Origin: Nonomuraea rubra
Lineage (GTDB): Bacteria > Actinomycetota > Actinomycetes > Streptosporangiales > Streptosporangiaceae
DNA: 64,000 nucleotides
Assembly: GCF_014207985.1 (NCBI RefSeq)
Contig: NZ_JACHMI010000001.1
Span: forward strand, 789,001 to 853,000
Reading direction: 5' to 3'
The position numbers were made by a program, and so were the translations under genes. A model generated the notes under the pieces. That model was not told where the DNA came from and searched no databases. It saw nothing but the letters and a program-made list of their open reading frames with translations. Below are positions 6,221-64,000 of the stretch, piece by piece; within the stretch, counting starts at the first letter, position 1; every line of letters begins with the position of its first letter.

Positions 6221-6235
6221 AGAGGAGTTCCAGCC

Positions 6236-9622: not shown

Positions 9623-9628
9623 AGAACC

Positions 9629-9660
9629 CCCCCGCGGCGGCCGCCCGGTCGCCGCGGGGG
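9629..9660. terminator. Strong GC hairpin
   Basis: Perfect 11-base inverted repeat (CCCCCGCGGCG / CGCCGCGGGGG) with a 10-base loop just after the metallopeptidase remnant stop. There is no U-tract, as is usual in actinomycetes. Confidence 0.65.
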
Positions 9661-9683
9661 CATCGGCCGGAAGGAGCCGAAGC

Positions 9684-10241: not shown

Positions 10242-10289
10242 CTCTCAGGATATATTGAAGCGCTGTTACATCGCTGAGAGGAGCCCTCG

Positions 10290-11524: not shown

Positions 11525-12025
11525 TCAGCGTTTGCGGGCGGTGCGCGGGCGGGAAGGCCGCTCCGGTGGCAGCACCTCCACCGACGTCTTGCGGATGTGG
11601 TCGTAGACCAGCGAGGTGCGTACGTCCGCGATGTTGCGGTGCCGCGAGACGTGGTCGAGCACGAAGTCGCGCAGATGCCCGGCGTCCCGCACCCCGACCT
11701 GGATGATGAAGTCGTCACCGCCCGAGACGACGAACACGGCCAGCGTCTCCGGCAACGCGGCCACGTAGTCGCGGAACCCCTCCACGGCCTCGCGGATCTT
11801 GGGGTGCAGGCGCACGTTGATCAGCGCCTGCACCGGCCGGCCGATCGCGTCGAGGTTGACCTCGGCGTGGAAGCCCTCGATGACGCCGGACGAGCGCAGC
11901 GACCGCACCCGCTCCAGGCAGGTCGAGGGCGCGATGCCGAGGTGCTCGGCCAGCTCGCGGTTGGTCTGGCGGCCGTCGCGCTGCAACTCGGCGAGAATCG
12001 CCGTATCAAGTTCGTCCACGTGCAC
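11525..12025 (-). CDS. Lrp/AsnC family transcriptional regulator
   Basis: 166-residue feast/famine regulator. The N-terminal helix-turn-helix (LDTAILAELQRDGRQTNRELAEHLGIAPSTCLERVRSL) is followed by the RAM ligand/oligomerisation domain (ALINVRLHP ... VSGGDDFIIQVGVRDAGHLRDFVLDHV). The basic C-terminal tail (PRTARKR) is extra. The divergent intergenic region has a clean inverted repeat, and the opposite gene encodes a DUF2000 protein, a frequent partner of Lrp genes in actinobacteria. Amino-acid effector unknown. Confidence 0.92.
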   Translation of the reverse strand: MHVDELDTAILAELQRDGRQTNRELAEHLGIAPSTCLERVRSLRSSGVIEGFHAEVNLDAIGRPVQALINVRLHPKIREAVEGFRDYVAALPETLAVFVVSGGDDFIIQVGVRDAGHLRDFVLDHVSRHRNIADVRTSLVYDHIRKTSVEVLPPERPSRPRTARKR

Positions 12026-12038
12026 ATCGTGGCACGTC

Positions 12039-12059
12039 TTTCCGAATTTTCTTCGGAAA
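12039..12059. promoter_or_regulatory. Probable Lrp/AsnC operator
   Basis: Perfect eight-base arms TTTCCGAA and TTCGGAAA separated by five bases, 14 bases upstream of the Lrp start and about 75 bases before the DUF2000 start. It suits autoregulation and divergent control. Confidence 0.65.
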
Positions 12060-12133
12060 TACCGCTTCCTGGTTGGTGGAACGGCGGCCTAGGTGTGAAC
12101 CTTCTGGCACAACTTCGGAGGAGGGATCCGTCG

Positions 12134-12586
12134 ATGACCGTGCTGGACGAGCTCGAACGCCGTACCGATCTGCCCACCAAGGAGCTCGCGGTCAAGTGGG
12201 TGATCGTGATCGACCGCGACCTGCCCAGAGGACTGCAGGCCAACGCCGCGGCCTGCCTGGCCGCCTCCGTCGGGGTCGCCGTGCCGGCGATCGTCGGGTC
12301 GGGCGGCGTGGACGGCTCCGGGCTCCCGCACGCCGGGCTGCCGTGGACGGGCTGCACGGTGCTGGGGGCGCCGGCCGCGATCGTGAGCCGGATCAGGAAG
12401 GACGCCGCCGCCGAGCCCGGGCTGGTGGTGACCGACATGGCGGCCATCGCGCAGCGGACCAACGTCTACGACGACTATCTGGCCGAGCTGGCACGCACGG
12501 AGGAGCCGCCGTACTACGCGGTCAGCCTCTTCGGCCCCCGGGCGATCGTCGAACGGCTCACGGGGCGGCTGCCGCTGCTCCGGTGA
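12134..12586 (+). CDS. DUF2000 family protein
   Basis: 150-residue cytosolic protein. KWVIVIDRDLPRGLQANAAACLAASVG and the following hydrophobic strand (VPAIVGSG) match the DUF2000 domain, which has the peptidyl-tRNA hydrolase 2-like fold. The C-terminal part (VTDMAAIAQRTNVYDDYLAEL) is also typical. GGAGGAGGG lies 9 bases before the ATG. The longer open frame upstream has no family similarity, so I do not use it. The divergent Lrp regulator probably controls it. Biochemical function has not been established for the family as far as I know. Confidence 0.82.
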   Translation: MTVLDELERRTDLPTKELAVKWVIVIDRDLPRGLQANAAACLAASVGVAVPAIVGSGGVDGSGLPHAGLPWTGCTVLGAPAAIVSRIRKDAAAEPGLVVTDMAAIAQRTNVYDDYLAELARTEEPPYYAVSLFGPRAIVERLTGRLPLLR

Positions 12587-12591
12587 GCCCT

Positions 12592-13221
12592 CTACAGCAG
12601 CCTGGCAGCCAGGAGGACGGCGAAGACGATCAGCGCCGCCCCGCACGCCGCCTCCAGCACCCGTACGGCCACCGGAGGCAACGCCCTGCGCAGCACGGCG
12701 ATGAGCCCCGCCGAGACGAAGCACCAGGCCAGGGAGGACGTCATGAACCCGGCGAAGAACACAGCCAGGCTCCCGGCCCCCGCGTCCTCACCCAGCACGG
12801 CCCCGACCGCCCCGGCCGCCCCCGACCAGTACACGACGTTCCAGGGATTGCCCAGCGACATGGCGGCGCCGACCGCGACCGCACCCCGGCTGGACCGCCC
12901 ACCCGCGACCGCCCCCGCCGCCTCGGGGCCGGGCCGGGGGAAGGCGGCGTCGCGCAGGCCGGTCAGCCCGAGCCAGGCGAGCAGCACGCACCCGGCGACC
13001 GTGAGCGGCACCCGCAGCACGGGGACCGCGAACAGAGCCCCCACGCCCGCCAGCCCGAGCACCGCCCACACGGCGTCCCCCGCCAGCGACCCGGCCTGCA
13101 CCGCGAACGCCGGCCCGAACCCGCCCCGCACCCCCCTGCGCAACGACTCGCTGAACACCGCACCGGGCGCCGCGTTGAACACCAGCCCGATCCAGAGGGC
13201 CAGCGTGAAGATCTCGGACAT
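12592..13221 (-). CDS. LysE family translocator
   Basis: 209-residue membrane exporter with six predicted helices. LysE/RhtB members export amino acids or related small molecules. The opening LALWIGLVFNAAPGAVFSESLRRGVRGGF contains the family's conserved Pro-Gly and Gly-Arg-Gly elements, and MSLGNPWNVVYWSGAAGAV is the conserved NP loop of helix 4. ATG at 13221 is preceded by a GAGTGA-like site. It is the last gene of a minus-strand run MFS-MDMPI-AraC-LysE, 38 bases after the AraC gene, which may sense the exported compound. Confidence 0.88.
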   Translation of the reverse strand: MSEIFTLALWIGLVFNAAPGAVFSESLRRGVRGGFGPAFAVQAGSLAGDAVWAVLGLAGVGALFAVPVLRVPLTVAGCVLLAWLGLTGLRDAAFPRPGPEAAGAVAGGRSSRGAVAVGAAMSLGNPWNVVYWSGAAGAVGAVLGEDAGAGSLAVFFAGFMTSSLAWCFVSAGLIAVLRRALPPVAVRVLEAACGAALIVFAVLLAARLL

Positions 13222-13259
13222 GGCGTTCACTCTGTCGGCGGGCGTCGTACGGCGTCTTG

Positions 13260-14087
13260 TCAGATGTTGATGGCCCGGTAGCGCCCGGGCGTGATGGCGT
13301 ACGCGGCGGTGAAGTGCCGGTGGAAGTGGGCCTGGTCGGCGAACCCCAGCCCGTGCGCCACCTCCGCGACCGCCAGCCCGCCACGCAGCCGCCGGCGCCC
13401 CTCGGCCAGCCTGGCCTGCAGATGCCACGCGTACGGCGGGCAGCCCGTGGCCCGGGTGAAGGAGCGGACCAGATGCTCCCGGGACATCCCGGCCTCACCG
13501 GCGAGGTCGGCCAGCCGCGGCGCGCTGGACAGGTCGTCCCGCAGCCGCTCCAGCACGGCGGCGATCCTGGCATCCCCCGGCTCCGGCCCCGGGGACCGGC
13601 GGGCCAGGCCGGGAGCGGCGAGGTCGAGCAGCCGCAGCAGCACGAGCGTCAGCCGCTCCTCGACCAGAGCGAGCACCTCACCCCCACCGAGACAGTCGCT
13701 CCCAGAAGGATCGCCCCCCGTCACGGCCAGGTGGCGGGCCGCCCGGAGCAGTTCCCGCCGCAGCTGAGGAGCCCGGACGACGGGCCGCGAGAAGTCCGGA
13801 GCCGCCCCGCCGACCAGCCCTCCGACCACACCCGGCGGCACGTACCAGCTCACACAGGTGAACGCCACCCCCTCACCCGTCCGCGTCGTGCAGGACTGCA
13901 CCTGGCCGGGGTTGTACGCGGTCACCTCGTCCAGATCCACCTCGAACGAGGCCCGATCCAGCCGCACCCGCTCCCGCCCGCTGACGTTGACACTGATGAC
14001 GTACTCGTCATGGCTGTGCCGGGCGAACCCCCCGGACGCCGGCGTGACGACGGCGAGCTGGGTGCCGTTCACGTCCCTGACCTGCAT
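13260..14087 (-). CDS. AraC family transcriptional regulator
   Basis: 275-residue activator. The N-terminal cupin-like ligand domain (HSHDEYVISVNVSGRERV) is followed by two helix-turn-helices at the C-terminus (PRLADLAGEAGMSREHLVRSFTRATGCPPYAWHLQARLAEGRRRL and VAEVAHGLGFADQAHFHRHFTAAYAITPGRYR). It sits between the MDMPI gene (15-base gap) and the LysE gene (38-base gap) on the same strand. AraC/LysE pairs of this type often couple sensing with export, which is inference here. Confidence 0.92.
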   Translation of the reverse strand: MQVRDVNGTQLAVVTPASGGFARHSHDEYVISVNVSGRERVRLDRASFEVDLDEVTAYNPGQVQSCTTRTGEGVAFTCVSWYVPPGVVGGLVGGAAPDFSRPVVRAPQLRRELLRAARHLAVTGGDPSGSDCLGGGEVLALVEERLTLVLLRLLDLAAPGLARRSPGPEPGDARIAAVLERLRDDLSSAPRLADLAGEAGMSREHLVRSFTRATGCPPYAWHLQARLAEGRRRLRGGLAVAEVAHGLGFADQAHFHRHFTAAYAITPGRYRAINI

Positions 14088-14102
14088 GCCCGCCAGATTA
14101 GG

Positions 14103-14903
14103 TCATATGGGGGGAACCAGCTCGAAGTAGCGATCGAGCACGCCCTTGTCCCCCCGCACGGCCAGCGCGCCGGACGGGATCCGCTGCCACAGGAACAACA
14201 TGAGATCCGAGGCCGTGCCCGCCAGCTCGACCTCGAAATCGGCCCCGTCGCCCACGCGTACGTGCTCCCCGTCGAACCGCACCACCCACTCGCCCGGCCC
14301 GTCGGTCCGCAGGAAGCGGAAGCGCTCGCCCGCTCCCGGCGGCGCCGACGCCCAGGCCCGCCGGGCCGGCGCCATCACCTCGAACGTCTGCGTGATGGCG
14401 TCCACCGCGATCTCCTCGTGGATGGGGCCGGCCGCGCCGACGGCGTTCTCGGCGTCCCAGCGGTGCACGGCGGCCTCGATGGTCTGCATCCGCAGCCAGA
14501 ACCCGACCGTCTGCTCCCGCGACCAGGTCCACGCGGGATCGTCCGGCGAACGTTCCCTGAACAGCGCTTCGAGCCGGCCGGCGCCCTCCTCGAAGGCGTC
14601 CAGCAGGGTCGCCGGGATGGGCCCGGGAGTCGGGTTCCTGCCGTGGACCGGCCAGCCCGCCGTGTCGGGCGGGAACTCCGTCCTGCCCAGCTCGGCGGGG
14701 TCCGGGGGCTCGTCGAGCCGGTCCCTGATGATGGCGGTCACGAACCGGTGCACCGCGGCCAGGTGGAACACCAGATCGGACATGGTCCACTCGGGACAGG
14801 ACGGCACGAAGGGCGCGTCGCCCGCCTCAGCGGCCTCGCGGGCGGCGGCGTGGAAGGCGCGTACTTCCCGGTGGAAATGTGCGGCAGCATCCATGGACCT
14901 CAC
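14103..14903 (-). CDS. Maleylpyruvate isomerase family (MDMPI/DinB-like) mycothiol-dependent protein
   Basis: 266-residue protein. The N-terminal four-helix DinB/MDMPI domain contains the metal-ligand pattern (SCPEWTMSDLVFHLAAVHRFVTAII and TIEAAVHRWDAE, with the His ligands). The C-terminal domain is the MDMPI_C sterol-carrier-like fold (FRFLRTDGPGEWVVRFDG ... GTASDLMLFLWQRIP). Such enzymes use mycothiol, a thiol of actinomycetes. The GTG at 14903 shares GTGA with the stop of the MFS gene, so the two are probably translationally coupled; an ATG three codons later is the alternative start. Confidence 0.85.
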   Translation of the reverse strand: MRSMDAAAHFHREVRAFHAAAREAAEAGDAPFVPSCPEWTMSDLVFHLAAVHRFVTAIIRDRLDEPPDPAELGRTEFPPDTAGWPVHGRNPTPGPIPATLLDAFEEGAGRLEALFRERSPDDPAWTWSREQTVGFWLRMQTIEAAVHRWDAENAVGAAGPIHEEIAVDAITQTFEVMAPARRAWASAPPGAGERFRFLRTDGPGEWVVRFDGEHVRVGDGADFEVELAGTASDLMLFLWQRIPSGALAVRGDKGVLDRYFELVPPI

Positions 14904-16081
14904 TGTGCCGCACGCCGGAGATCGACCTCCATCGGTTTACGCCGTCCGCGCAACCCGGCGATCCCGGCGACGGCCAGCGCGAGCCCCACCAGCCCGGCGC
15001 TCACCCACAGCGGCGACCGGAACCCGAGCCCGGCCTCGATGGCCAGGCCGCCCAGCCCGGGGCCGAGGGTGGCGCCCACGTTGAACGCCGCCGTGGCGAA
15101 GGCGCCGCCCAGGGTGGGGGCGCCGGTGGCGGCGTACAGGACCTGCGAGATCAGCGTGGACCCGACCGCGAACGACAGCGTGCCCTGGACGAGGACCAGC
15201 CCGATCGCCGGCCCGGCAGCCCCGGCCGCCAGCGCGAACGCGGCCCAGCCGGCCGCCAGCGCCACCCCGCCGGCCACCATCAGCGGCACGGGCCGCCGGT
15301 CGGCGATCCGGCCGCCGATCGTCACCCCGGCGAACGAGCCGAGCCCGAACAGTGCGAGCATCGCCGGCATCCAGGAGGAGCCGATCCCGCTGACGCCGGT
15401 GAGCACCGGCGCGAGGTAGGTGAAGGTGCAGAAGGTGGCCCCGTTCACCAGGGCGCCGAGCACCAGGAGCAGCACGAGCCGGGGCCGCCGCAACGCCCGC
15501 ACCTCGCCCCGCACGCTCCCCGCACCCCCGTCAGGGGCTCCGCCGGGCACGGACTTCAGGACCGCGAGGATGGCCGGCACCAGCGCCAGCGCCACCGCCC
15601 AGAACGCCGACCGCCACCCCCACAGCTCGCCGAGCAGCGCCCCGCCGGGCACCCCGGCGACGCAGGCGATGGTCACCCCGCCCAGCAGGACGGAGGTGGC
15701 GCGCCCCTTGGCGTCCGCGGGCGCCAGGGCGACGGCGGTCGCCATGGCCACGGCCAGGAACCCGGCGTTGGCCAGCGCCGCCAGGACGCGGGTCACGACC
15801 AGCACCTCGTAGCTGGTGGTGACCGCGCCGACGACGTGCGCGGCGAGGAAGACGAGAAGGAAGGCGAGCAGCGCGGCCCGCCTGGACAGCCGCAGGCTCA
15901 GGGCGGCCATCAGCGGCGCCCCCACCACCATCCCGGCGGCGAACGCCGAGGTCAGCAGCCCCGCGGCGGGAATGGACACGCCCAGGTCGCGGGCGATGGC
16001 GGGCACGAGCCCGGACAACATGAACTCGGACGTGCCCTGGGCGAAGACCGCCAGCCCGAGCAGGTAGACAGCGAAAGGCAT
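14900..16081 (-). CDS. MFS transporter, chloramphenicol-efflux (Cmx/CmrA) type
   Basis: 393-residue drug:proton antiporter of the DHA1 group with twelve helices. LAVFAQGTSEFMLSGLVPAIARDLGVS is the characteristic N-terminal sequence of Cmx/CmlR and sugar-efflux relatives, and GALLGELWGWRSAFWAVALAL is the motif-C region with its conserved glycines. ATG at 16081 has GAGAG upstream; a longer frame adds 25 unlikely residues. It is first in the operon with MDMPI, AraC and LysE genes. Actual chloramphenicol resistance is possible but not demonstrated by sequence. Confidence 0.85.
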   Translation of the reverse strand: MPFAVYLLGLAVFAQGTSEFMLSGLVPAIARDLGVSIPAAGLLTSAFAAGMVVGAPLMAALSLRLSRRAALLAFLLVFLAAHVVGAVTTSYEVLVVTRVLAALANAGFLAVAMATAVALAPADAKGRATSVLLGGVTIACVAGVPGGALLGELWGWRSAFWAVALALVPAILAVLKSVPGGAPDGGAGSVRGEVRALRRPRLVLLLVLGALVNGATFCTFTYLAPVLTGVSGIGSSWMPAMLALFGLGSFAGVTIGGRIADRRPVPLMVAGGVALAAGWAAFALAAGAAGPAIGLVLVQGTLSFAVGSTLISQVLYAATGAPTLGGAFATAAFNVGATLGPGLGGLAIEAGLGFRSPLWVSAGLVGLALAVAGIAGLRGRRKPMEVDLRRAAQ

Positions 16082-16368
16082 CAGAGAGCTCTCACAGGAC
16101 GGCGGGCAGGCCGGCAGACCGGTCCCGCTCGCGATGGAACAGCCCGGCGCGACCACGCGAGAAGCGCGTCAAGCGGCTCAGGCTGGAATGGCCCGTGACA
16201 CGGTGATCCGGATGGCGAGAGCGCCCATGGAGAACACCCGCCTCAAGCGGCGGGGAGGCAGCGCGGAACAGCCACCGGACGACCGGTGGCTAGCGTCTTG
16301 ACGCCTCAGGGCTGGACATGAGCGTCAATTTAGCATGGACGCGACGGTGGAGCGCTAGGAGAAAACCC
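16082..16368. other. Divergent intergenic region, 287 bases
   Basis: Contains a perfect 8-base hairpin (GCCACCGG-acga-CCGGTGGC, 16271-16290) and an inverted repeat TTGACGC ... GCGTCAA (16298-16304 and 16322-16328) just upstream of the HAD gene. The hairpin could be a leader or attenuator and the inverted repeat an operator. No known riboswitch motif was recognised. Confidence 0.4.
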
Positions 16369-17019
16369 ATGAACGCCAGACCGCACGTTGTGATCTTCGA
16401 TGTGAACGAGACGCTGATCGACATGGAGCCGTTGCGGGCCAGGTTCGAGGACGTGGGGCTGTCAGGGGAGCAGTTGCCGACGTGGTTCGCGAGCGTGCTG
16501 CGCGACGGGTTCGCGCTCACGGTATCCGGTGGGTTCGCCGAGTTCGCCCGGATCGGCGCGGACGTGCTCAAGGGCATGCGGCTGCAGGACAAGGCGGTGG
16601 ACCACGTGCTGAGCGGGCTCGCCGGGCTGCGGGTGCACCCCGACGTGCCGGACGGCATGCGGAGCCTGCGCGAGGCGGGCATCAGGCTGTTCACCATGAC
16701 GAACGGCTCCGCCGCGACGACCGCGGGCATCCTGCGCCGCGAGGGCCTGCTGGACCTGGTGGAGGCCACGCTCGACGTGAGCGGCCCGCGCGCGTGGAAA
16801 CCCGCCAGGGCGGCCTACGAGTACGCCGTGGGCCTGGCGGGCGTGGTGCCGGCCCAGGCGGCCCTGGTGGCCGTGCACCCGTGGGACGTCCACGGCGCCC
16901 AGCGGGCGGGCTTGTCGGGGGCGTACCTGGACCGGCGCGGCGTGCCGTACCCGGACACGATGTCCGCCCCACACCTCACGGCCCCGGACCTGCGCGCGCT
17001 GGCGGCGCTCTGGCGGTGA
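16369..17019 (+). CDS. Haloacid dehalogenase type II (HAD hydrolase)
   Basis: 216-residue cytosolic HAD enzyme that resembles L-2-haloacid dehalogenases. The nucleophile motif VIFDVNETLID puts Asp12 first, as required. Motif II is FTMTNGSAAT, the motif III lysine is in RAWKPARAAYEYAV, and ALVAVHPWDVHGAQRAGL occupies the place of the motif IV DD region with a His/Asp variation typical of dehalogenases. ATG at 16369 follows AGGAGA; the longer frame from 16318 is unsupported. The last 21 bases including the stop are tandemly duplicated downstream. True dehalogenation versus phosphatase activity is not settled. Confidence 0.85.
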   Translation: MNARPHVVIFDVNETLIDMEPLRARFEDVGLSGEQLPTWFASVLRDGFALTVSGGFAEFARIGADVLKGMRLQDKAVDHVLSGLAGLRVHPDVPDGMRSLREAGIRLFTMTNGSAATTAGILRREGLLDLVEATLDVSGPRAWKPARAAYEYAVGLAGVVPAQAALVAVHPWDVHGAQRAGLSGAYLDRRGVPYPDTMSAPHLTAPDLRALAALWR

Positions 17020-17040
17020 CTGGCGGCGCTCTGGCAGTGA
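16999..17040. repeat. 21-base tandem duplication across a stop codon
   Basis: Copies 16999-17019 (end of the HAD gene, including TGA) and 17020-17040 differ at one base. The second copy lies in the 3' flank and keeps the in-frame TGA. Confidence 0.9.
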
Positions 17041-17045
17041 AGGAG

Positions 17046-17822
17046 TCAGTGCCGCCGCAGGAAGTCCAGCACCAGGGGGCTCGCCACCTGCCTGAACTCC
17101 TCGAAGTACGCGTGCCGCGCCCCCTCGATCATCCGCAGCTCCGCCCCCGGGACGCGTCCGGCCAGCAGCGGGGCGTTGGCCGCCGGGTTGAAGACGTCGT
17201 CGGTGCCGTGCACGACCAGCGTGGGCGCCGCGATGCCGGGCAGCGCGTCCCAGGCGTCGTGGCCGGCGCTGGCGGCCAGGTGGCGGCGGCGCGCGTGGGC
17301 GGGCATGTGCGGGTCGCCGATCGTGCGGTACGGGCCCGGGTGGGCGGCCAGCCAGGCGGGCGTGTACATGAGCTCCAGCAGCGCCCGCTCGGCGGCTGCC
17401 CGGTCGGGCTGGGCCAGCGACCCGCGTACCTCGTTGCTCCGCTCCACCCCGTGGGCGCCGCCCGGCGAGCTGCAGCCGAGCACCAGCGCCCCGACCCGCG
17501 CGGGATGGTCCGCCGCCAGCCACTGGGCCACCCGCCCGCCCATCGACGTGCCGTACACGTGCGCCCGCTCCACGCCCGCCTCGTCGAGCACGGCCAGCAC
17601 ATCGGCGGCGAACCCGCGCGTGCTGTACGGCTCGTCCGGCTTGTCGCTGCCGCCGGTGCCGCGGTAGTCGAGGGTGATGGTCAGGTAGGAGCCGAAGTCG
17701 TCGCGTACGGAGTCCCACCAGCGGTGGTCGTTGGCCTGCCCCTGCAGCAGCACGAGAGGCTCCCCGTGGCCGCGGACCTGGTAGGACAGCTTCACGCCTT
17801 CGGCTGTGGTTGCGTAGGACAC
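17046..17822 (-). CDS. Alpha/beta hydrolase
   Basis: 258-residue hydrolase of the fold-1 family. The oxyanion region is LVLLQGQANDHRWW, the strand-4 motif LDYRGTGGSDKP is typical, the nucleophile elbow is GTSMGG with the serine, and VVHGTDD and GARHAYF carry the Asp and His of the triad. Pattern resembles 3-oxoadipate enol-lactonases and haloalkane-type esterases, but substrate is unknown. The start is GTG 17822; the upstream open frame lacks similarity. It is divergent from the DGPF/sigma pair, so it could belong to that regulon, which is speculative. Confidence 0.85.
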   Translation of the reverse strand: MSYATTAEGVKLSYQVRGHGEPLVLLQGQANDHRWWDSVRDDFGSYLTITLDYRGTGGSDKPDEPYSTRGFAADVLAVLDEAGVERAHVYGTSMGGRVAQWLAADHPARVGALVLGCSSPGGAHGVERSNEVRGSLAQPDRAAAERALLELMYTPAWLAAHPGPYRTIGDPHMPAHARRRHLAASAGHDAWDALPGIAAPTLVVHGTDDVFNPAANAPLLAGRVPGAELRMIEGARHAYFEEFRQVASPLVLDFLRRH

Positions 17823-52140: not shown

Positions 52141-53055
52141 TCACTCGGGATGATCTACCTGTTCGAGACGGGCGGCGCGCTCGGCGAGCCTGGCCTCCCG
52201 CTGGCGGATCTTCTCCTCCCGCTCGCGGGCCTTCTCGGCCTCCTTCAGTAGCCGCTCGCGCTCCTTCAGCTCGCGTACGCGGGCCTTCTCGGCCTCCTTG
52301 AGCTCCCGCTGGCGGACCTTCTCCGCCTCCTTGAGCTCCTTCTCGCGGGCCTTCTCCAGCTCGCGCAGCTCCTTCTCGCTGGTCTGGCGCGGCTGCGGCG
52401 GCTTGGCGGCGTTCGTCACGGCCCGGCTGGTGGCGGTGATCGTCGGATTGGGGTTGAGCCCGGTCAGGCCGTTCCAGGCCAGGTTGACCAGGTGGGCGGC
52501 GACCTCCTCGCGGCCCGGCTTGCGCACGTCGAGCCACCACTGGCCGGTCAGGGCGACCATGCCGACCAGCATCTGGGCGTACATCGGGGCCAGCTTGGGG
52601 TCGTAGCCGCGGGCCGCGAACTCGTCGGCCAGCACGTCCTCGACCTGACTGGCGATCTCGCTGATCAGGCTCGCGAACGTGCCGGTGCCGGAGGCGGCGT
52701 GGGAATCGCGCACGAGGATGCGGAAGCCCTCGCTGCTCTCCTCGATGTAGCGGAGCAGGGCCAGCGCGGCCCGCTCCAGCTTGATGAGGGAATGGGAGGC
52801 GGCCAGGGCCTCGGTGATCATGCCGAGCAGCTTCTGCATCTCGCGGTCGACGACGACCGCGTAGACGCCTTCCTTGCCGCCGAAATGCTCGTACACCACG
52901 GGTTTCGACACCTGTGCGGTCGCTGCGATCTCTTCGATAGAGGTCCCGTCGAACCCCTTCTCCGCGAAGAGGGTGCGGCTGATCTGGATCAGCTGCTCTC
53001 TTCGCTCGCTACCGGACATGCGCCTGCGAGATCGGGGTTCGGTCACGGTTTCCAT
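52141..53055 (-). CDS. TetR family regulator with a long charged C-terminal helix
   Basis: 304-residue regulator. The helix-turn-helix (REQLIQISRTLFAEKGFDGTSIEEIAATAQVSKPVVYEHFGGKEGVY) and ligand domain occupy about 20-215. From ~223 to the end comes a Glu/Lys/Arg-rich helix with an 11-residue period (EKELRELEKAR, EKELKEAEKVR, QRELKEAEKAR ...), predicted as a coiled coil or single alpha helix. Such a tail is unusual for TetR. I use ATG 53055, just after a perfect palindrome; in-frame starts exist at 53067 and 53019. It follows the desaturase gene by 43 bases and probably belongs to its operon. Confidence 0.88.
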   Translation of the reverse strand: METVTEPRSRRRMSGSERREQLIQISRTLFAEKGFDGTSIEEIAATAQVSKPVVYEHFGGKEGVYAVVVDREMQKLLGMITEALAASHSLIKLERAALALLRYIEESSEGFRILVRDSHAASGTGTFASLISEIASQVEDVLADEFAARGYDPKLAPMYAQMLVGMVALTGQWWLDVRKPGREEVAAHLVNLAWNGLTGLNPNPTITATSRAVTNAAKPPQPRQTSEKELRELEKAREKELKEAEKVRQRELKEAEKARVRELKERERLLKEAEKAREREEKIRQREARLAERAARLEQVDHPE

Positions 53056-53060
53056 AATGA

Positions 53061-53080
53061 CGGTCATGCCCGCATGACCG
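53061..53080. promoter_or_regulatory. Palindrome at the TetR start
   Basis: CGGTCATGC-CC-GCATGACCG, nine-base arms, five bases upstream of the chosen ATG and between the desaturase and TetR genes. A good autoregulatory operator candidate. Confidence 0.65.
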
Positions 53081-53098
53081 CTCACCGCCTGTTTGGCG

Positions 53099-54037
53099 CT
53101 AGGCAATGCGCTTCGCCGCCAGCCGCTCAGGCGTCGGCCAGCGCACGTCGTACACCCATCCCAGCTTCTCGAAGATCCGGATCAGGCCGGCGCTCAGGTC
53201 GATCTGGCCCTTGAGCGCGCCGTGCCTGGCGCAGGTCGGGTCGGAGTGGTGCAGGTTGTGCCACGACTCGCCGAAGGACGGGATGGCCAGCCACCACACG
53301 TTGCGGGACTTGTCGCGGACCTGGAAGTCCTCCTCGCCGAAGACGTGGCAGATCGAGTTGATCGACCAGGTCACGTGGTGCAGCAGGCCGATGCGTACCA
53401 GCGAGCCCCAGAACAGCGCGGTCAGGCCGCCCTGCCAGGACCAGGTGAACAGCATGCCCAGCACGCCCGGCAGCAGGATCGAGGTGAGGGCGATCGGGCC
53501 GAACCACTTGTGCAGCTTCAGCACGTCCTGGTCCTTGCACAGGTCGGGAGCGTACTTCTCCCTGTTGGTGCGCTCGCTCTCGAACAGCCAGCCCATGTGG
53601 GCGTAGAGCAGGCCCTTGGCCATGTTCTTGAACCCGGGGCCGAAGCGCCACGGCGAGTGCGGGTCGCCCTCCTTGTCGGAGAACTTGTGGTGCTTGCGGT
53701 GCGTGGCGACCCAGTCCAGCACGGACATCTCCAGGGACAGGCTGCCCGCGATGCCCATGGCGATCTTCAGCGGCCGCTTGGCCTTGAAGGAGCCGTGCGT
53801 GAAGTAGCGGTGCAGGCCGACGGTGACGCCCAGGCCGGAGACCACGTAGAAGACGAAGGCGATGGCGATGTCCGTCCAGCCGAGTCCCCATCCCCACGCG
53901 AACGGCACGGCGGCCGCGATCGCGACCAGGGGCAGTCCGACGACCAGGCCGAAGGTGAACAGCTCGGACTTCGACTTCGGTTCGGCTTCGAAATCGGGCT
54001 TGGGGGCAGGTGCAGAGCGCTCGGCGACAACGGTCAT
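53099..54037 (-). CDS. Acyl-CoA/acyl-lipid delta-9 desaturase
   Basis: Membrane di-iron desaturase of 312 residues that introduces a cis double bond into saturated acyl chains, so it tunes membrane fluidity. Histidine boxes are HRYFTH, HRKHH and HNLHH, in the expected order and spacing, with four membrane helices around them (LVVGLPLVAIAAAVPFAWGW, IAIAFVFYVVSGLGVTVGL). ATG 54037 follows TTGGAGG. Downstream, the TetR gene is separated by 43 bases. Two copies of a CTACGC-NN-(C/G)CGTAA box lie upstream and should bind its controller. Confidence 0.94.
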   Translation of the reverse strand: MTVVAERSAPAPKPDFEAEPKSKSELFTFGLVVGLPLVAIAAAVPFAWGWGLGWTDIAIAFVFYVVSGLGVTVGLHRYFTHGSFKAKRPLKIAMGIAGSLSLEMSVLDWVATHRKHHKFSDKEGDPHSPWRFGPGFKNMAKGLLYAHMGWLFESERTNREKYAPDLCKDQDVLKLHKWFGPIALTSILLPGVLGMLFTWSWQGGLTALFWGSLVRIGLLHHVTWSINSICHVFGEEDFQVRDKSRNVWWLAIPSFGESWHNLHHSDPTCARHGALKGQIDLSAGLIRIFEKLGWVYDVRWPTPERLAAKRIA

Positions 54038-57771: not shown

Positions 57772-58356
57772 ATGGATCGCTGGCTGATCGCCGGACTGGG
57801 CAACCCGGGGGCCGAATACGCGGGCAACCGGCACAACGCGGGCTTCATGGTGCTCGACGAGCTGGCAGCCAGGGCGAGCGGGCGGTTCAAGGCGCACAAG
57901 AGCAGGGCCGAGGTGTGCGAGACCAGCACCGCCATCCTGGCCAAGCCCCTGACGTACATGAACCTCTCCGGCGGGCCCGTCAAGGCGCTCTCCGACTTCT
58001 ACAAGATCGGCCCGGAGCGGCTGATCGTCGTCCACGACGAGCTGGACGTGCCGTACGGCGCGCTGCGCGCCAAGCTGGGCGGCGGCGACAACGGCCACAA
58101 CGGGCTCAAGTCCATCACCAAGGTCCTCGGCACCCGTGACTACCTGCGGGTCCGCTTCGGCATCGGGCGCCCGCCCGGCCGCATGGACCCGGCCTCCTTC
58201 GTGCTGCGCGACTTCGCCACCATGGAGCGCAAGGACCTGCCCTTCCTCGTGGACCGGGCGGCCGACGTCGTGGAGTCGCTGATGGCCCGCGGCCTGGAGG
58301 CCACCCAGAACGAGTTCCACCGGGCTGATCTGCACATTTCCGGCCCTCCTCGCTGA
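57772..58356 (+). CDS. pth: Peptidyl-tRNA hydrolase
   Basis: Essential 194-residue enzyme that frees tRNA from peptidyl-tRNA dropped by ribosomes. [28 protein letters not shown] contains the catalytic His and the Asn, [13 protein letters not shown] the peptide site, and [30 protein letters not shown] the Asp and Asn-Gly-His-Asn-Gly motif. The rplY-pth pair is conserved in actinobacteria. Confidence 0.97.
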
Positions 58357-58463: not shown

Positions 58464-59921
58464 GTGCGCGGCCACGAGCTCTTGACCGTCGTCTGGTCGG
58501 GTCAAGGGGTCACTTGGGGAAGCAGGCCGCGCACGCCCTCCTGGGTCCACTCCTACCGGCTCAGGGCCGTGCTGGGCGATCTGTGCGGGGCCTGGCTGGG
58601 GGCCGGGGCGGCGTTCACGGTCAGGTTCGGCGGGCTCACCCCGTACGTGCTGCCGTACCTGCTGGTCAGCCTGGCGTTGCCGCTGGTGTGGTGCTGCGCG
58701 GTGGCGCTCAGCCGCGCCTACGAGCCGCGCATGCTCGGCGTCGGCTCCGAGGAGTTCCGCCGGGTCGTCCAGGCCGGGGTGGCGCTGACGGCGGGCACGG
58801 CCATCGGCTCCTACGTCACCAAGACCGACGTCGCGCGCGGCTATGTCGTGCTGGCCCTGCCCCTGGTCACGCTGCTCACGCTGGTCTTCAGGCACGCCCT
58901 GCGCCGCTCGCTGTACCGCCGCAGGGCCGCGGGGGCGTGCATGCGCAGGGTCGTCGCCGTCGGCCACGCCGCCTCGATCGCCGAGCTGGTCCGCCTGTTC
59001 CGCAGGGAACGCCACCACGGCATGGACGTCGTGGCCGCCTGCCTGCCCGGCGGTCATGCCGGGAAGCGGCTGGACGAGGTGCCCGTCGCGGGCGACCTCA
59101 GCGACGTGCCCCTCGCGGTGGAGCACTTCGACGCCGACACGGTGGCCGTGCTGGCCTGCCCCGAGATGGACGGCCAGGCGCTGCGCCGGCTGGCCTGGCG
59201 GCTGGAGCGCAGCCACACCGAGCTCGTCGTGGCCCCCGCGCTGATGGACGTGGCCGGCCCGCGCACCACGATCAGGCCGGTGGCGGGGATGCCGCTGCTG
59301 CACGTCGAGCACCCCGAGCTGGCCGGCGTCAGGCAGCTCGTCAAGAACGTCTTCGACCGGCTGGTGGCCGCCGCCCTGCTGGTTGTGCTGTCGCCGCTGC
59401 TGGCGGGGCTGGCCATCGCGGTGCGGGCGACCAGCCCGGGGCCCGCGCTGTTCCGCCAGACCAGGGTGGGCAGGGACGGGCGGCTGTTCACGATCCTGAA
59501 GTTCCGTACCATGCGGCGCGGCTCGGAGGAGCAGAAGATCACCCTGGTGAGCGACAGGGAGGGCGTGCTGTTCAAGATCCGCAACGATCCGCGGGTCACG
59601 CCGCTCGGCGTGCTGATGCGCAGGCACTCGCTGGACGAGCTGCCGCAGCTGCTCAACGTCGTACGTGGCCACATGTCGCTCGTCGGCCCCCGGCCGCCGC
59701 TGCCGGACGAGGTGGCACGCTACGGTGACGATGTGCGCAGACGACTCCTCGTACGCCCTGGGCTGACCGGGCTGTGGCAGGTCAGTGGCAGATCTGACCT
59801 ATCGTGGGAGGAATCCGTGCGTCTCGACCTGCGTTACGTGGAGAACTGGTCCCTCACCCTGGACCTCCAGATCCTGTGGAAGACTTGGTCGGCCGTCGCC
59901 CGCGGGCAAGGAGCATATTGA
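58464..59921 (+). CDS. Initiating undecaprenyl-phosphate sugar-1-phosphate transferase (exopolysaccharide biosynthesis)
   Basis: 485-residue polyisoprenyl-phosphate hexose-1-phosphate transferase that begins repeat-unit assembly on the membrane. Four N-terminal helices and a CoA-binding-like domain (VVAVGHAASIAELVRLF) are followed by a final transmembrane helix (FDRLVAAALLVVLSPLLAGLAIAV) and the catalytic domain: ALFRQTRVGRDGRLFTILKFRTM, TPLGVLMRRHSLDELPQLLNVVRGHMSLVGPRPPLPDEVARY and RPGLTGLWQVSGRS. GTG 58464 follows GGAGG. It opens a run of genes for sulfate activation and sulfate transfer, which suggests that the product is a sulfated glycan. Confidence 0.92.
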   Translation: MRGHELLTVVWSGQGVTWGSRPRTPSWVHSYRLRAVLGDLCGAWLGAGAAFTVRFGGLTPYVLPYLLVSLALPLVWCCAVALSRAYEPRMLGVGSEEFRRVVQAGVALTAGTAIGSYVTKTDVARGYVVLALPLVTLLTLVFRHALRRSLYRRRAAGACMRRVVAVGHAASIAELVRLFRRERHHGMDVVAACLPGGHAGKRLDEVPVAGDLSDVPLAVEHFDADTVAVLACPEMDGQALRRLAWRLERSHTELVVAPALMDVAGPRTTIRPVAGMPLLHVEHPELAGVRQLVKNVFDRLVAAALLVVLSPLLAGLAIAVRATSPGPALFRQTRVGRDGRLFTILKFRTMRRGSEEQKITLVSDREGVLFKIRNDPRVTPLGVLMRRHSLDELPQLLNVVRGHMSLVGPRPPLPDEVARYGDDVRRRLLVRPGLTGLWQVSGRSDLSWEESVRLDLRYVENWSLTLDLQILWKTWSAVARGQGAY

Positions 59922-60685
59922 TGACGATTCGCGACGACCACGCCCTCGCCGCCGACCTGGCGACCGAGGCGGGCGAGAGGCTGTTGCGGGTCCGCGAGCG
60001 GGTGGGGTTCGCCGACTCCGCCGCGCTGCGGGCCGAAGGCGACAGGTCCTCTCACGTCTACCTCATGGAGTCGCTGGCCCGGTTGCGGCCCAGCGACAGC
60101 GTGCTGTCGGAGGAGGCCACCCGCGAGGAGCGCCTCGACCCCAGGAGGCTGACGGCCGAACGGGTCTGGATCGTGGATCCGCTCGACGGCACCAGGGAGT
60201 TCTCCGAGGAGGGCAGGGCCGACTGGGCCGTGCACGTGGCGCTGTGGGAGCGGGGGAAGCTGGCCGCCGGGGCCGTGGCGCTGCCCGCGCAGGGGCGCAC
60301 GCTGACGACCGCCGAGCCGCCCAAGCTGCCGTCCTTCGACAAGGGGCGCTTCCGCATCGCGGTGAGCCGTACGCGGCCGCCCGAGTTCGTGCAGAAGCTG
60401 GCCTACCTCGTGGGGGCCGACCTCGTGCCGATCGGCTCGGCCGGGGCCAAGATCTCCGCGGTGCTCACCGGCGAGGTGGAGGCGTACGTGCACGCCGGAG
60501 GCCAGTACGAGTGGGACTCCGCCGCGCCCGTGGCCGTCGCGCTGGCGGCGGGGGCGCACGCGAGCCGCATCGACGGCTCGGAGGCCACCTACAACCAAGC
60601 CGACCCCTCACTACCAGATATTCTGGTTTCCCTACCGGAGCTGGCGGCATCCCTGCTCGCCGGAATCCGGGACCTGCACCGCTGA
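59921..60685 (+). CDS. cysQ: 3'(2'),5'-bisphosphate nucleotidase CysQ-like
   Basis: 254-residue member of the inositol-monophosphatase fold. The metal motif is VWIVDPLDGTREFSEEG (DPLDGT, D86 first), SEEAT precedes it, and YEWDSAAPVAVALAAGAHAS (WDxAAP) is near the end. CysQ removes phosphate from PAP, the by-product of sulfotransferases and PAPS reduction, which prevents product inhibition. The ATG overlaps the previous stop by one base (TGATG) and AAGGAG lies nine bases upstream. Its place between the sugar transferase and CysD fits recycling of PAP made by the sulfotransferase at 62969. Confidence 0.92.
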   Translation: MTIRDDHALAADLATEAGERLLRVRERVGFADSAALRAEGDRSSHVYLMESLARLRPSDSVLSEEATREERLDPRRLTAERVWIVDPLDGTREFSEEGRADWAVHVALWERGKLAAGAVALPAQGRTLTTAEPPKLPSFDKGRFRIAVSRTRPPEFVQKLAYLVGADLVPIGSAGAKISAVLTGEVEAYVHAGGQYEWDSAAPVAVALAAGAHASRIDGSEATYNQADPSLPDILVSLPELAASLLAGIRDLHR

Positions 60686-60704
60686 ACCCGCCGGAGGGAG
60701 CTCC

Positions 60705-61619
60705 ATGCTGCAGCGCGACTACACGACGTCGCAGCTCGACGTGCTCGAAGCAGAGGCCATTCACATCATGCGAGAAGTGGCGGCCGAGTTCGAGCGTCCC
60801 TGTCTGCTCTTCTCCGGAGGCAAGGACTCGATCGTCATGCTCCGCATCGCGGAGAAGGCGTTCTGGCCCGCCGCGATCCCGTTCCCGCTCATGCACGTGG
60901 ACACGGGCCACAACTTCGACGAGGTCATCGAGTTCCGCGACCGCCGCTCCGCCGAGCTGGGCGCGCGGCTGATCGTCGCCAGCGTGCAGGACTCCATCGA
61001 CCAGGGCCGCGTGGTGGAGGAGACCGGCCGGCGCGCCTCGCGCAACCGCCTGCAGACCACCACGCTGCTCGACGCGATCGAGGAACACGAGTTCGACGCC
61101 GTCTTCGGCGGCGCCAGGCGCGACGAGGAGAAGGCCCGCGCCAAGGAGCGGGTGTTCTCCTTCCGCGACGACTTCGGGCAGTGGGACCCGAAGAACCAGC
61201 GCCCCGAGCTGTGGAGCCTGTACAACTCGCGCATCCGCAAGGGTGAGCACATCCGCGTCTTCCCGCTGTCCAACTGGACCGAGCTCGACGTCTGGGACTA
61301 CATCAGGCGCGAGGGCATCGAGATCCCCTCCATCTACTTCGCCCACACCCGCAAGGTCTTCGAGCGCGACGGCATGCTGCTGCCCGACGCCGACGTCGTC
61401 CAGCGCGGCGAGGACGAGCCGCTGTTCGAGTCCGTGGTGCGCTACCGCACCGTGGGCGACATGACCTGCACCGGCGCCGTGCAGTCCACGGCCGCCACGG
61501 TCGAGGAGATCATCGAGGAGATCGCGGCCACCCGGATCACCGAGCGCGGGGCCACCAGGGCCGACGACCGCTCCTCCGAGGCCGCGATGGAAGACCGGAA
61601 GCGAGAGGGCTACTTCTAA
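60705..61619 (+). CDS. cysD: Sulfate adenylyltransferase subunit 2
   Basis: ATP-pyrophosphatase subunit that, with CysN, makes APS from sulfate and ATP. The 304-residue protein has the PP-loop LLFSGGKDSIVMLRIA (37-42), MHVDTGHNFDEVIEFRD, GGARRDEEKARAKERVFSFRD and PLSNWTELDVWDYIRREGIEIPSIY, all standard. It lies 19 bases after cysQ, with GGAGGGAG as ribosome site, and 2 bases before cysN. Confidence 0.96.
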   Translation: MLQRDYTTSQLDVLEAEAIHIMREVAAEFERPCLLFSGGKDSIVMLRIAEKAFWPAAIPFPLMHVDTGHNFDEVIEFRDRRSAELGARLIVASVQDSIDQGRVVEETGRRASRNRLQTTTLLDAIEEHEFDAVFGGARRDEEKARAKERVFSFRDDFGQWDPKNQRPELWSLYNSRIRKGEHIRVFPLSNWTELDVWDYIRREGIEIPSIYFAHTRKVFERDGMLLPDADVVQRGEDEPLFESVVRYRTVGDMTCTGAVQSTAATVEEIIEEIAATRITERGATRADDRSSEAAMEDRKREGYF

Positions 61620-61621
61620 CG

Positions 61622-62884
61622 ATGGACATTCTGCGCTTTGCCACGGCGGGAAGCGTCGACGACGGCAAGTCCACCCTCATCGGACGGTTGCTCTTCGACT
61701 CCAAGGCGATCTTCGAGGACCAGCTCGAGGCCGTCGAGCGCACCTCCCGCGACCGCGGCACCGAGTACACCGACCTGTCGCTGCTGACCGACGGCCTGCG
61801 GGCCGAGCGGGAGCAGGGCATCACGATCGACGTGGCGTACCGCTACTTCGCGACCCCGCGCCGCAAGTTCATCATCGCCGACACGCCCGGGCACATCCAG
61901 TACACGCGCAACATGGTCACCGGCGCCTCCACGGCCGACCTGGCGATCGTGCTCATCGACGCCCGCAAGGGGGTGCTGGAGCAGTCGCGGCGGCACGCGT
62001 TCCTGACCTCGCTGCTGCGCGTCCCGCACCTGGTGCTCGCCGTCAACAAGATGGACCTGGTCGACTACTCGCAGGAGCGCTTCGAGGAGATCAAGGACGA
62101 GTTCACGGCGTTCGCTTCCAAGCTGAACATCGCCGACCTCACCTTCATCCCGATCTCCGCGCTCAACGGCGACAACGTGGTCTCCCGCTCCGAGAACATG
62201 CCGTGGTACCTCGGCACGTCCCTCCTGCACCACCTGGAGAACGTGCACATCGCCTCCGACCGCAACCTGACCGACGTGCGCTTCCCCGTGCAGTACGTCA
62301 TCCGCCCGCAGCGGGCCACCGACCCGGCCTTCCACGACTACCGCGGCTACGCGGGGCAGGTGGCCGGCGGCGTGCTCAAGCCCGGTGACGAGGTCGTGCA
62401 CCTGCCGTCGGGCCTGACCACGCGCATCGCCTCGATCGACACCTTCGACGGGCCGGTCGAGGAGGCGTTCCCGCCCATGTCGGTGACGCTGCGGTTCGAG
62501 GACGACCTGGACGTCTCGCGCGGCGACATGATCGCCCGCCCGAACAACCAGCCGCAGGCGGCGCAGGAGCTGGAGGCGATGGTCTGCTGGATGGCCGACG
62601 GCGTCAAGCTCGGGCCGCGCTCCAAGCTGACGATCAAGCACACCACCCGTACGGCCCGCGCGCTCGTCCGCGACCTGCACTACCGGCTCGACGTCAACAC
62701 CCTGCACCGGGACGAGGAGGCGACCTCCCTCGGCCTGAACGAGATCGGCAGGGTGTCGCTGCGCGTCACGCAGCCGCTGTTCGTGGACGACTACGCCCGT
62801 AACCGCGCCACCGGCGGCTTCATCCTCGTGGACGAGTCCACGAACGCCACTGTCGGCGCCGGCATGGTCATCGACGCAAGGTAG
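61622..62884 (+). CDS. cysN: Sulfate adenylyltransferase subunit 1 (GTPase), no CysC fusion
   Basis: 420-residue translational-GTPase-fold subunit that drives APS synthesis. The P-loop is AGSVDDGKSTLIGRLL (10-18), switch II DTPGHIQYTRNMVTGAS, NKMD and a C-terminal beta-barrel domain (GYAGQVAGGVLKPGDEVV). The protein ends after domain III, so no APS kinase domain is fused; CysC must be supplied elsewhere, perhaps beyond the right edge. Only two bases separate it from cysD. Confidence 0.95.
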   Translation: MDILRFATAGSVDDGKSTLIGRLLFDSKAIFEDQLEAVERTSRDRGTEYTDLSLLTDGLRAEREQGITIDVAYRYFATPRRKFIIADTPGHIQYTRNMVTGASTADLAIVLIDARKGVLEQSRRHAFLTSLLRVPHLVLAVNKMDLVDYSQERFEEIKDEFTAFASKLNIADLTFIPISALNGDNVVSRSENMPWYLGTSLLHHLENVHIASDRNLTDVRFPVQYVIRPQRATDPAFHDYRGYAGQVAGGVLKPGDEVVHLPSGLTTRIASIDTFDGPVEEAFPPMSVTLRFEDDLDVSRGDMIARPNNQPQAAQELEAMVCWMADGVKLGPRSKLTIKHTTRTARALVRDLHYRLDVNTLHRDEEATSLGLNEIGRVSLRVTQPLFVDDYARNRATGGFILVDESTNATVGAGMVIDAR

Positions 62885-62968
62885 ATCTTTTAGCGTTCAG
62901 TTACCGATCGTTTACTCTCCGCAGTAGGGTCGTCGCGTTCCGTTGTCGTGACGGGAAGGCCCTCCTCC
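62885..62968. promoter_or_regulatory. Short intergenic region before the sulfotransferase gene
   Basis: Contains TAGGGT (62926-62931), a -10-like element, in an AT-richer stretch (TCTTTTAGCGTTCAGTTACC). A second promoter for the downstream genes is possible. Confidence 0.35.
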
Positions 62969-63865
62969 GTGACTGATCGCGCGCCCGCCCAGGTGATCTA
63001 CCTGGGCGGCCTCGGCCGAAGCGGCACCACGCTGCTCGAGAGGCTCCTCGGCGAGCTTCCCGGGGTGGTCCCGCTGGGCGAGGTGGTGCATCTGTGGGAC
63101 CGGGGGGTTCTCGCGGAGGAGCTCTGCGGGTGCGGTTCGGCGTTCCCCGCCTGTCCGTTCTGGGTGGCGGTCGGGGAGCGGGCGTTCGGCGGCTGGCGAT
63201 CGGAACACGCCGAGCGCATGGTCCTGTTGCGTGGCAGGATCGACCGCACCCGCAGGATCGCGCGGATCGCGCATCCCGATCTGGCCGAGTACGCGCGGGC
63301 GTACCGGCTGCTGTACGACGCGACCGGGGCACGGGTCGTGATCGACTCCAGCAAGCACGCGTCGCTGGCCTGCTGCCTGCTGGCGAGCGGCGTGGACGTA
63401 CGCGTCGTGCACGTCGTCAGGGACCCGCGCGCCGTCGCGCACTCCTGGGGCAGGACGGTGCGCAGGCCCGAGGACGGGCGGCCGATGACCCGGTGGGGCC
63501 CGGCCCGCACCGCGCTCCACTGGTCGGCCCAGAACACCGCGTTGGAGCTGCTGCCCGGGCGCGGCGCCCGGGTGACCCGGGTCCGTTACGAGGACCTGCT
63601 CGCCGCGCCCGGCGCCACCCTGACGGCGCTGGCGCTGCGGCTCGGGCTGCCGGAGCCGGAGCTGCCGTTCCTCCAGGGCCGCACGGCCTGGCTGGGGCCC
63701 TCGCACACCGCTTCGGGCAACCCCATGCGCTTCCACGTCGGGCGGGTCGAGCTGCGGCGCGACGACTCCTGGCGCAACGGCCTGCCCGACGCGGACCGGC
63801 GGGTCGTCAACGCCCTCACCTGGCCGCTCAGGGCCCGCTACGGCTACTGGGGGGTGGTGAGGTGA
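62969..63865 (+). CDS. PAPS-dependent sulfotransferase
   Basis: 298-residue cytosolic sulfotransferase. The 5'-phosphosulfate loop is YLGGLGRSGTTLLERLL (about 11-27) and the 3'-phosphate motif is VVHVVRDPRAVAHSW. A Cys-rich loop CGCGSAFPACPFW, common in bacterial glycan sulfotransferases, follows the P-loop region. GTG 62969 has GGGAAGG upstream; GTG 62948 is an alternative. The stop overlaps the next GT2 start (GTGA). Acceptor is probably a sugar of the glycan built by neighbouring enzymes. Confidence 0.9.
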   Translation: MTDRAPAQVIYLGGLGRSGTTLLERLLGELPGVVPLGEVVHLWDRGVLAEELCGCGSAFPACPFWVAVGERAFGGWRSEHAERMVLLRGRIDRTRRIARIAHPDLAEYARAYRLLYDATGARVVIDSSKHASLACCLLASGVDVRVVHVVRDPRAVAHSWGRTVRRPEDGRPMTRWGPARTALHWSAQNTALELLPGRGARVTRVRYEDLLAAPGATLTALALRLGLPEPELPFLQGRTAWLGPSHTASGNPMRFHVGRVELRRDDSWRNGLPDADRRVVNALTWPLRARYGYWGVVR

Positions 63866-64000
63866 GCCCGTCGGTAGGCGTCGTCATCCCGACGCGCGGC
63901 GACCGGCCCGCGCTGCTCCGCCAGGCCGTGGACGCGGTGCTGCTGCAGGACTACCCGGGCGAGCTGCAGGTGGTCGTGGTGGCCGACGGCCGCTCGCCCG
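63862..64000 (+). CDS. Glycosyltransferase family 2 (5' end only)
   Basis: The first 46 codons read SPSVGVVIPTRGDRPALLRQAVDAVLLQ and VVVVADGRSP, the opening beta strand and helix and the DG motif of GT-A fold family 2 enzymes. Start GTG shares GTGA with the sulfotransferase stop, so the genes are coupled. The rest lies beyond the window. Confidence 0.82.
   Translation, partial: MSPSVGVVIPTRGDRPALLRQAVDAVLLQDYPGELQVVVVADGRSP

Follow-up and report, generated by a model that had tools for sequence, protein, structure and literature searches.

Based on profile searches and a comparison of gene neighbourhoods, we propose that the interval between pth and mfd in Nonomuraea rubra is probably a Wzx/Wzy-type locus that makes a sulfated surface glycan, with the full route to 3'-phosphoadenosine 5'-phosphosulfate (PAPS) inside it and with the ATP sulfurylase CysDN shared with cysteine synthesis. 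The locus begins in the window studied here, a stretch of 64,000 nucleotides at C1:789001-853000 of the 12.9 Mb genome, and continues into a rightward extension (L002, C1:852001-872000). The gene pth is the left boundary and is followed on the plus strand, nearly without gaps, by genes for a polyprenyl glycosylphosphotransferase (PGT), CysQ, CysD, CysN, a sulfotransferase (ST1) and a family 2 glycosyltransferase (GT2). According to the open reading frame (ORF) coordinates PGT and cysQ overlap by 1 base and ST1 and GT2 by 4 bases, and the gaps are 19 nt between cysQ and cysD, 2 nt between cysD and cysN, and 63 nt between cysN and ST1. The six genes from PGT to GT2 had been described in this arrangement in a first-pass annotation, and both the profile matches and the ORF coordinates agree with it. 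As also stated there, 58464-64000 was seen to contain neither cysH nor cysI nor a gene for a sulfate transporter; a gene for a TauE/SafE permease lies about 9.4 kb past the window end. The nearest named relative found was Nonomuraea thailandensis, with 95-100% identity in pth, PGT, cysQ, cysD, cysN and ST1. The left part of the locus, in window coordinates, is as follows.

57772..58356 (+): pth, peptidyl-tRNA hydrolase (PF01195, E 6.1e-64; TIGR00447 over cut-off)
58464..59921 (+): PGT (PF02397, Bac_transf, E 2.1e-65; TIGR03025, EPS_sugtrans, 407.7 bits, cut-off 295.55)
59921..60685 (+): cysQ, predicted phosphatase that converts 3'-phosphoadenosine 5'-phosphate (PAP) to AMP (PF00459, Inositol_P, E 7.2e-32)
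60705..61619 (+): cysD, ATP sulfurylase small subunit (TIGR02039, 457.3 bits, cut-off 396.6)
61622..62884 (+): cysN, ATP sulfurylase GTPase subunit (TIGR02034, 577.9 bits, cut-off 336.1)
62948..63865 (+): ST1, sulfotransferase (PF13469, E 1.5e-13, 51.9 bits, cut-off 27)
63862..64000 (+): GT2 glycosyltransferase, cut by the window end, whole gene L002:862-1746 (PF00535, E 2.4e-17)

To the right, where the annotation had proposed to look for an APS kinase, a flippase and polymerase pair and more glycosyltransferases, we found an APS (adenosine 5'-phosphosulfate) kinase, flippase-, polymerase- and length-control-like genes and another glycosyltransferase, together with two more sulfotransferases (ST2 and ST3). 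The right part, in L002 coordinates, reads as follows.

1775-2674 (+): WecG/TagA/CpsF glycosyltransferase (PF03808 above cut-off)
2628-3581 (-): ST2, sulfotransferase (PF13469)
3578-4825 (-): Wzx-like protein (Pfam match just under cut-off)
4813-5658 (-): ST3, sulfotransferase (PF13469)
5664-6572 (-): WpsI-like protein (assigned by position only)
6569-7837 (-): Wzy-like protein (Pfam match just under cut-off)
7831-9144 (-): Wzz (PF02706, 36.8 bits, cut-off 25.5)
9372-10454 (+): GH26-like enzyme (Pfam match above cut-off)
10399-11289 (-): TauE/SafE permease
11277-12491 (-): fusion of a PUA-like part and an APS kinase
12601-13338 (-): methyltransferase (Pfam match above cut-off)
13817-17326 (+): mfd

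Among the components expected of a Wzx/Wzy locus, the PGT (TIGR03025), the further glycosyltransferases (PF00535, PF03808) and Wzz all score above cut-off. The three sulfotransferases match PF13469 with 51.9, 44.2 and 45.3 bits (cut-off 27), and ST1 carries GRSGTT and RDPR, which we take to be PAPS-binding motifs; its likelier start, read by eye, is a GTG at 62969 preceded by GGAAGG. The GH26-like enzyme has a lipobox-like start (read by eye) and is probably exported. No Pfam family matches the WpsI-like protein itself; its relative in another genome of the family (L092) matches APH, a phosphotransferase family, with E 5.7e-7. CysQ scores below the cut-off of the NCBIfam CysQ equivalog TIGR01331 (103.4 vs 228.8 bits), and its best PDB relative is 5djf, a 3'-phosphoadenosine 5'-phosphate phosphatase (E 5e-67).

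In the working that we propose, in which every enzyme activity is predicted from these matches, the PGT would load a sugar phosphate onto undecaprenyl phosphate and so start the repeat unit, which GT2 and WecG would extend. CysDN would convert sulfate and ATP to APS, the PUA-APS-kinase fusion would convert APS to PAPS, and up to three sulfotransferases (ST1, ST2 and ST3) would decorate the repeat unit in the cytosol. PAP is a known sulfotransferase inhibitor, and CysQ would clear it. Wzx would then export the unit, Wzy polymerise it and Wzz set the length, with the GH26-like enzyme trimming the product, a putative sulfated glycan of the spore or envelope.

Elsewhere in the window, a regulator-like gene at 52141-53106 (-) encodes an N-terminus that looks like that of TetR, followed by a long tail of some 100 residues that is repetitive and highly charged (translation read by eye).

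Sulfate activation and the cysteine branch

The cysD of the locus was the only one found in the genome, and no ATP sulfurylase of the PF01747 type was found in the genome either. CysN keeps the GTPase motifs GSVDDGKST, DTPGH and NKMD and has no fused APS kinase. The one APS kinase match in the genome, with 150 of the 183 first-look candidates scored, is the fusion in the locus, which consists of a PUA-like N-terminus, a middle part without a match to the ATP-sulfurylase catalytic domain and without the QxRN motif, and the APS kinase. A bifunctional ATP sulfurylase was considered for the fusion and rejected, as both PF01747 and the QxRN motif are missing. Since the fusion lacks the ATP-sulfurylase domain, CysDN would be needed for APS formation. 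A relative of the fusion stands beside cysQDN in a genome of another family (L106); it is an APS kinase with a shorter N-terminal part and no PUA_2 match.

A single cysH was found, at C1:3.15 Mb and 2.3 Mb away from the locus; a sulfite/nitrite-reductase gene and a CbiX gene flank it, and cysDN is not there. An ordinary assimilatory cys operon was therefore rejected, as neither cysH nor a sulfite reductase gene adjoins cysDN. Rejected as well was a second, sulfation-only copy of cysDN, since this cysD is the only one found and PF01747 is absent; a second cysDN set beside cysH elsewhere, which the annotation had suggested looking for, did not appear. The annotation had reasoned that an only cysDN in the genome, followed by cysH and cysI, would speak against a sulfation cassette; it is the only cysDN found, and cysH and cysI do not follow it.

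With the only cysD found and no other ATP sulfurylase, CysDN must serve cysteine synthesis too, so that APS would be the branch point between the sulfation locus and the distant reductase-cysH operon. The CysH sequence holds CC and CAPC cysteines, presumably the pattern of iron-sulfur APS reductases. As CysH thus looks like an APS reductase, the APS kinase and CysQ would be the sulfation-specific parts. The earlier idea of a dedicated sulfation cassette, judged by this cysteine argument, would accordingly fit the APS kinase and CysQ, and does not fit CysDN.

Recurrence within and outside the family

The arrangement was followed in named genomes by a scan with ST1, from which the best 80 of 192 confirmed loci were kept, 61 of them at least 20 kb long. 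These 61 loci, being selected by ST1 match, are a biased sample. WecG and GT2 were found in all 61, cysD and cysN in 60, PGT and cysQ in 59, pth in 58, ST3, WpsI and Wzy in 55, ST2 and Wzz in 54, and Wzx in 53. Because the gene order recurs in named relatives, the arrangement is not due to chance. The part from ST3 to Wzz was not found in the fetched 20 kb of five Microbispora loci (L064, L066, L070, L074 and L083) and one Planotetraspora locus (L079); L074 reaches ST2 at its end, and the cluster may be spread out in those relatives and not lost. Two further observations concern single genomes. In L089 (G031) the region 10092-16131, between cysN and ST1, holds a SIR2-like gene, a glycosyltransferase, a D-Ala-D-Ala ligase and two AraC-type regulators, and in G015 a second group of wzy, ST3 and PGT (C7:1509750-1524886) occurs in addition to a main locus, possibly as a second sulfated-glycan cluster.

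A sample of 150 family genomes, not selected by ST1, gave cysD in 147 (a single match in 128), cysH in 145 and wzy in 105. Distances were counted among the matches listed (146 of the 147 cysD genomes; cysH taken to E 1e-20, PGT to E 1e-60), with the shortest distance used where there were several copies. Both cysD and wzy were listed for 104 genomes; the two were on one contig in 89 and on different contigs in 15, and all 89 pairs were within 40 kb, at a median of 10.9 kb. Among the 143 genomes with both cysD and cysH, one contig was shared in 26, with no pair closer than 951 kb, and different contigs were found in 117; many of the sampled genomes are fragmented, and two genes split across contigs could in fact lie near each other. 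A PGT match was found at most 6 kb from cysD in 90 of 104 wzy-bearing vs 5 of 42 wzy-lacking genomes. The genomes share ancestry and these counts are not independent, which would make any p value too small.

Outside the family, a class sample of 196 genomes with completeness of at least 90% was used (matches to E 1e-40 for cysD, 1e-30 for ST3 and 1e-200 for mfd; counts again among the matches listed). An ST3 relative was within 40 kb of mfd in 11/16 genomes of the own family and in 8/19 of other families, three of the latter eight (G194, G211 and G223) with only 35-38% identity to ST3, and cysD was within 40 kb of mfd in 12/19 of the own family and 2/83 of others. For ST3 and cysD, a distance of at most 40 kb was seen in 15 of the 16 own-family genomes. 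One locus (L099) reads pth-GT2-ST1-wzx-ST3-wpsI-wzy-wzz-mfd without cysQDN. In a further family, a 60 kb stretch of G172 (L101-L103) holds cysQDN, glycan genes, tauE and the APS kinase together, and L106 (G277) reads mfd-cysQ-cysD-cysN-APS kinase with no glycan matches. As judged from neighbourhoods and not from a tree, glycan genes would be more widespread between pth and mfd than cysQDN is, and may have been there before cysQDN arrived.

Weighing the alternatives

Several observations weigh against a sulfated glycan made by this locus. The Wzx- and Wzy-like proteins match the right Pfam families with scores under the cut-offs (PF13440 22.0/23, PF01554 22.2/24.9 and PF04932 29.3/31.7 bits). 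Outside the locus, eight further ORFs in the genome match Sulfotransfer_3, three of them weakly, and a PF13469 match was present somewhere in 10/10 genomes tested, 8 of which lack wzy; PAPS thus has other possible users. No wzy match was found in 42 of the 146 cysD genomes. Six of these 42 were inspected (L092-L095, L109 and L110), along with five PGT-bearing ones. In the inspected relatives the sulfate block still stands beside pth and, where the stretch extends that far, near mfd. L094 reads pth-cysQ-cysD-cysN-tauE-APS kinase-methyltransferase-mfd, uninterrupted by any glycan gene; L093 and L109 gave no match to the glycan queries, with the ORFs between cysN and mfd identified in part; and in L092, L095 and L110 a few glycan-gene matches remain. 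Among the five genomes with PGT and no wzy match (G001, G048, G089, G114 and G131), L112 of G114 has ST1, GT2, GH26 and Wzx matches up to the contig end, and the short contig L111 of G001 has only a GH26 match beyond cysN. In L113-L116 (G131, G048 and G089) dTDP-rhamnose-type genes and other glycosyltransferases lie to the right of PGT-cysQDN, joined in L113 and L116 by genes for a further Wzy_C protein and a beta-helix protein, and no sulfotransferase was detected among those ORFs of these four stretches that were scanned. G105 was inspected as well (L111-L117 cover this set). As the sulfate block is kept without detected glycan genes or a detected sulfotransferase, its position alone is no proof of sulfation, and the place of cysQDN between pth and mfd may be plain synteny.

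From such relatives it could be argued that cysQDN is an ordinary sulfate-activation block between pth and mfd, and that the glycan cluster shares the slot without a functional or regulatory link. The single cysD fits this explanation, as do the pth-cysQDN blocks near mfd without detected glycan genes (L093, L094 and L109) or with cassettes without a detected sulfotransferase, and sulfotransferase genes elsewhere in such genomes would explain why these genomes retain the APS kinase and CysQ. In other families, ST3 and cysD lie within 40 kb of each other in 1/17 genomes, which points the same way. We nevertheless regard plain housekeeping synteny as unlikely. If CysH reduces APS, cysteine synthesis would need neither CysQ nor the APS kinase. 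PGT and cysQ overlap by one base, and in none of the 26 genomes that carry cysH and cysD on one contig is this housekeeping partner near cysD. The ST3-mfd neighbourhood outside the family is wider than that of cysD and mfd (8/19 vs 2/83), and this points to cysQDN having joined a glycan locus; the same association occurs in another family (G172).

It would be very improbable, in our judgement, that the sulfotransferases act on a lipid, peptide or small glycolipid, with a sulfated oligosaccharide or natural product in place of a polymer. Sulfotransfer_3 enzymes use many acceptors, and the sole PDB relative of ST1 up to E 0.1 is a weak match (4gbm, E 8.4e-5) to the CurM sulfotransferase, presumably a polyketide-pathway enzyme, while a search of the PDB for relatives of ST2 gave none up to E 0.01. 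Both ST2 and ST3 are however interleaved with Wzx-, Wzy- and Wzz-like genes, and ST3 resembles heparan sulfate sulfotransferases: its best PDB relatives are the unnamed sulfotransferase 3rnl (E 2.7e-19), followed by heparan sulfate N- and 3-O-sulfotransferases (1nst, E 6.6e-12; 1t8t, E 2.6e-11).

That a rhamnose-type cassette can stand on the right-hand side of PGT-cysQDN points to an exchange of cassettes of the kind seen in capsule loci. The pth-mfd locus looks modular, and one conceivable organisation is put forward tentatively: constant arms, PGT-cysQ-cysD-cysN on the left and tauE-APS kinase-methyltransferase on the right, would flank an exchangeable polymer cassette, and the only ATP sulfurylase would have been captured by the capsule-like locus of the Streptosporangium/Nonomuraea family. 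If so, much of the family would share sulfation of a glycan of the spore or envelope as a core trait, and for cysteine the cell would rely on APS made by genes of a developmental polysaccharide operon. The motif GCCGAWA, which we take to be of the developmental sigma-factor type, was not found in the locus.

If the pth-mfd locus does make a sulfated surface glycan, such glycans would be a widespread trait among actinomycetes, with a full sulfation route recurring across a soil family. It would also provide new carbohydrate sulfotransferases and a testable link from sulfur metabolism to spore or sporangium development.

Comparison with known systems

Nonomuraea mostly bears spore chains, and searches of the open-licence PMC literature gave no paper on sulfated glycans of Nonomuraea or Streptosporangium. 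The closest system is the wps-1 cluster of Actinoplanes missouriensis (Tezuka and Ohnishi, June 2026, PMC13390465), for which, in the available parts of the paper, a sulfated polysaccharide is predicted, experimental proof is asked for by the authors, and deletion is reported to disturb sporangia. The wps-1 cluster has a GT2, a sulfotransferase, WecG/TagA, GH26, a methyltransferase, Wzx, a second sulfotransferase, WpsI, Wzy, Wzz and a Sat/APS-kinase-type neighbour; the present locus has genes of these types, with Wzx and Wzy scoring under the Pfam cut-offs and WpsI assigned by position only, and the run wzx-ST3-wpsI-wzy-wzz corresponds in order to wpsG-H-I-J-K (PMC13390465). The order ST1-GT2-WecG differs from wpsA-B-C, which is GT2, sulfotransferase and WecG, and GH26 and the methyltransferase are placed elsewhere; ST1 and GT2 are proposed as counterparts of WpsB and WpsA, matched by gene type and not by sequence orthology. 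The blocks GH26..wzx-ST3-wpsI-wzy-wzz and wecG-ST1-GT2 were seen in a Dactylosporangium locus (L084). No PGT, cysQ, cysD or cysN is named in the available account of wps-1, whereas the present locus has all four, as well as a third sulfotransferase and tauE; the DUF4262 protein of wps-1 was not among the locus ORFs scanned (PMC13390465).

Deletion of AMIS_7390, a Sat/APS-kinase family gene that neighbours wps-1, gave a severe defect that was called unexpected, and the gene product is read there, in the text available, as APS-forming (PMC13390465). Its proposed counterpart here lacks the ATP-sulfurylase domain and would instead act as an APS kinase. If the AMIS_7390 protein resembles the fusion, loss of PAPS would be a possible explanation of the sporangium defect of the Actinoplanes mutant. 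The suggestion in the first-pass annotation that such a cassette may be undescribed therefore needs narrowing: a cluster with the same gene types has been published, and searches of the open-licence PMC literature gave no actinomycete version of the Wzx/Wzy type that combines the only cysDN found in its genome with a PGT and three sulfotransferases.

In the parts available to us, sulfated polysaccharides are described as confined, among bacteria, to cyanobacteria (PMC8205485, PMC13390465), yet sulfated capsules of marine Vibrio and Cobetia have been published. The capsule of Cobetia marina KMM 1449, with a structure reported as sulfated, has a cluster with cysN/C, cysD, cysQ, a sulfate permease gene and sulfotransferases (PMC11766843), and that of Vibrio sp. 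KMM 8419, likewise reported as sulfated, has cysN, cysD, an APS kinase and sulfotransferases in its cluster (PMC11641403). The corresponding predicted set in N. rubra is cysD, cysN, cysQ, the PUA-APS-kinase fusion and three sulfotransferases. According to these accounts, Cobetia and Vibrio are marine Gram-negative hosts with ABC-transporter export, whereas the present locus is probably of the Wzx/Wzy type in a soil actinomycete; the Vibrio cys genes are second copies (PMC11641403), and those of the present locus are the only copy found. The synechan xss cluster of Synechocystis makes a sulfated exopolysaccharide of the Wzx/Wzy type and has two sulfotransferase genes, the locus type proposed here; it is cyanobacterial, and cysD, PAPS and sulfate adenylyltransferase do not appear in the main text of that paper (PMC8205485). 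PAPS genes inside polysaccharide clusters are thus a known concept, and the actinomycete arrangement is a variant of it.

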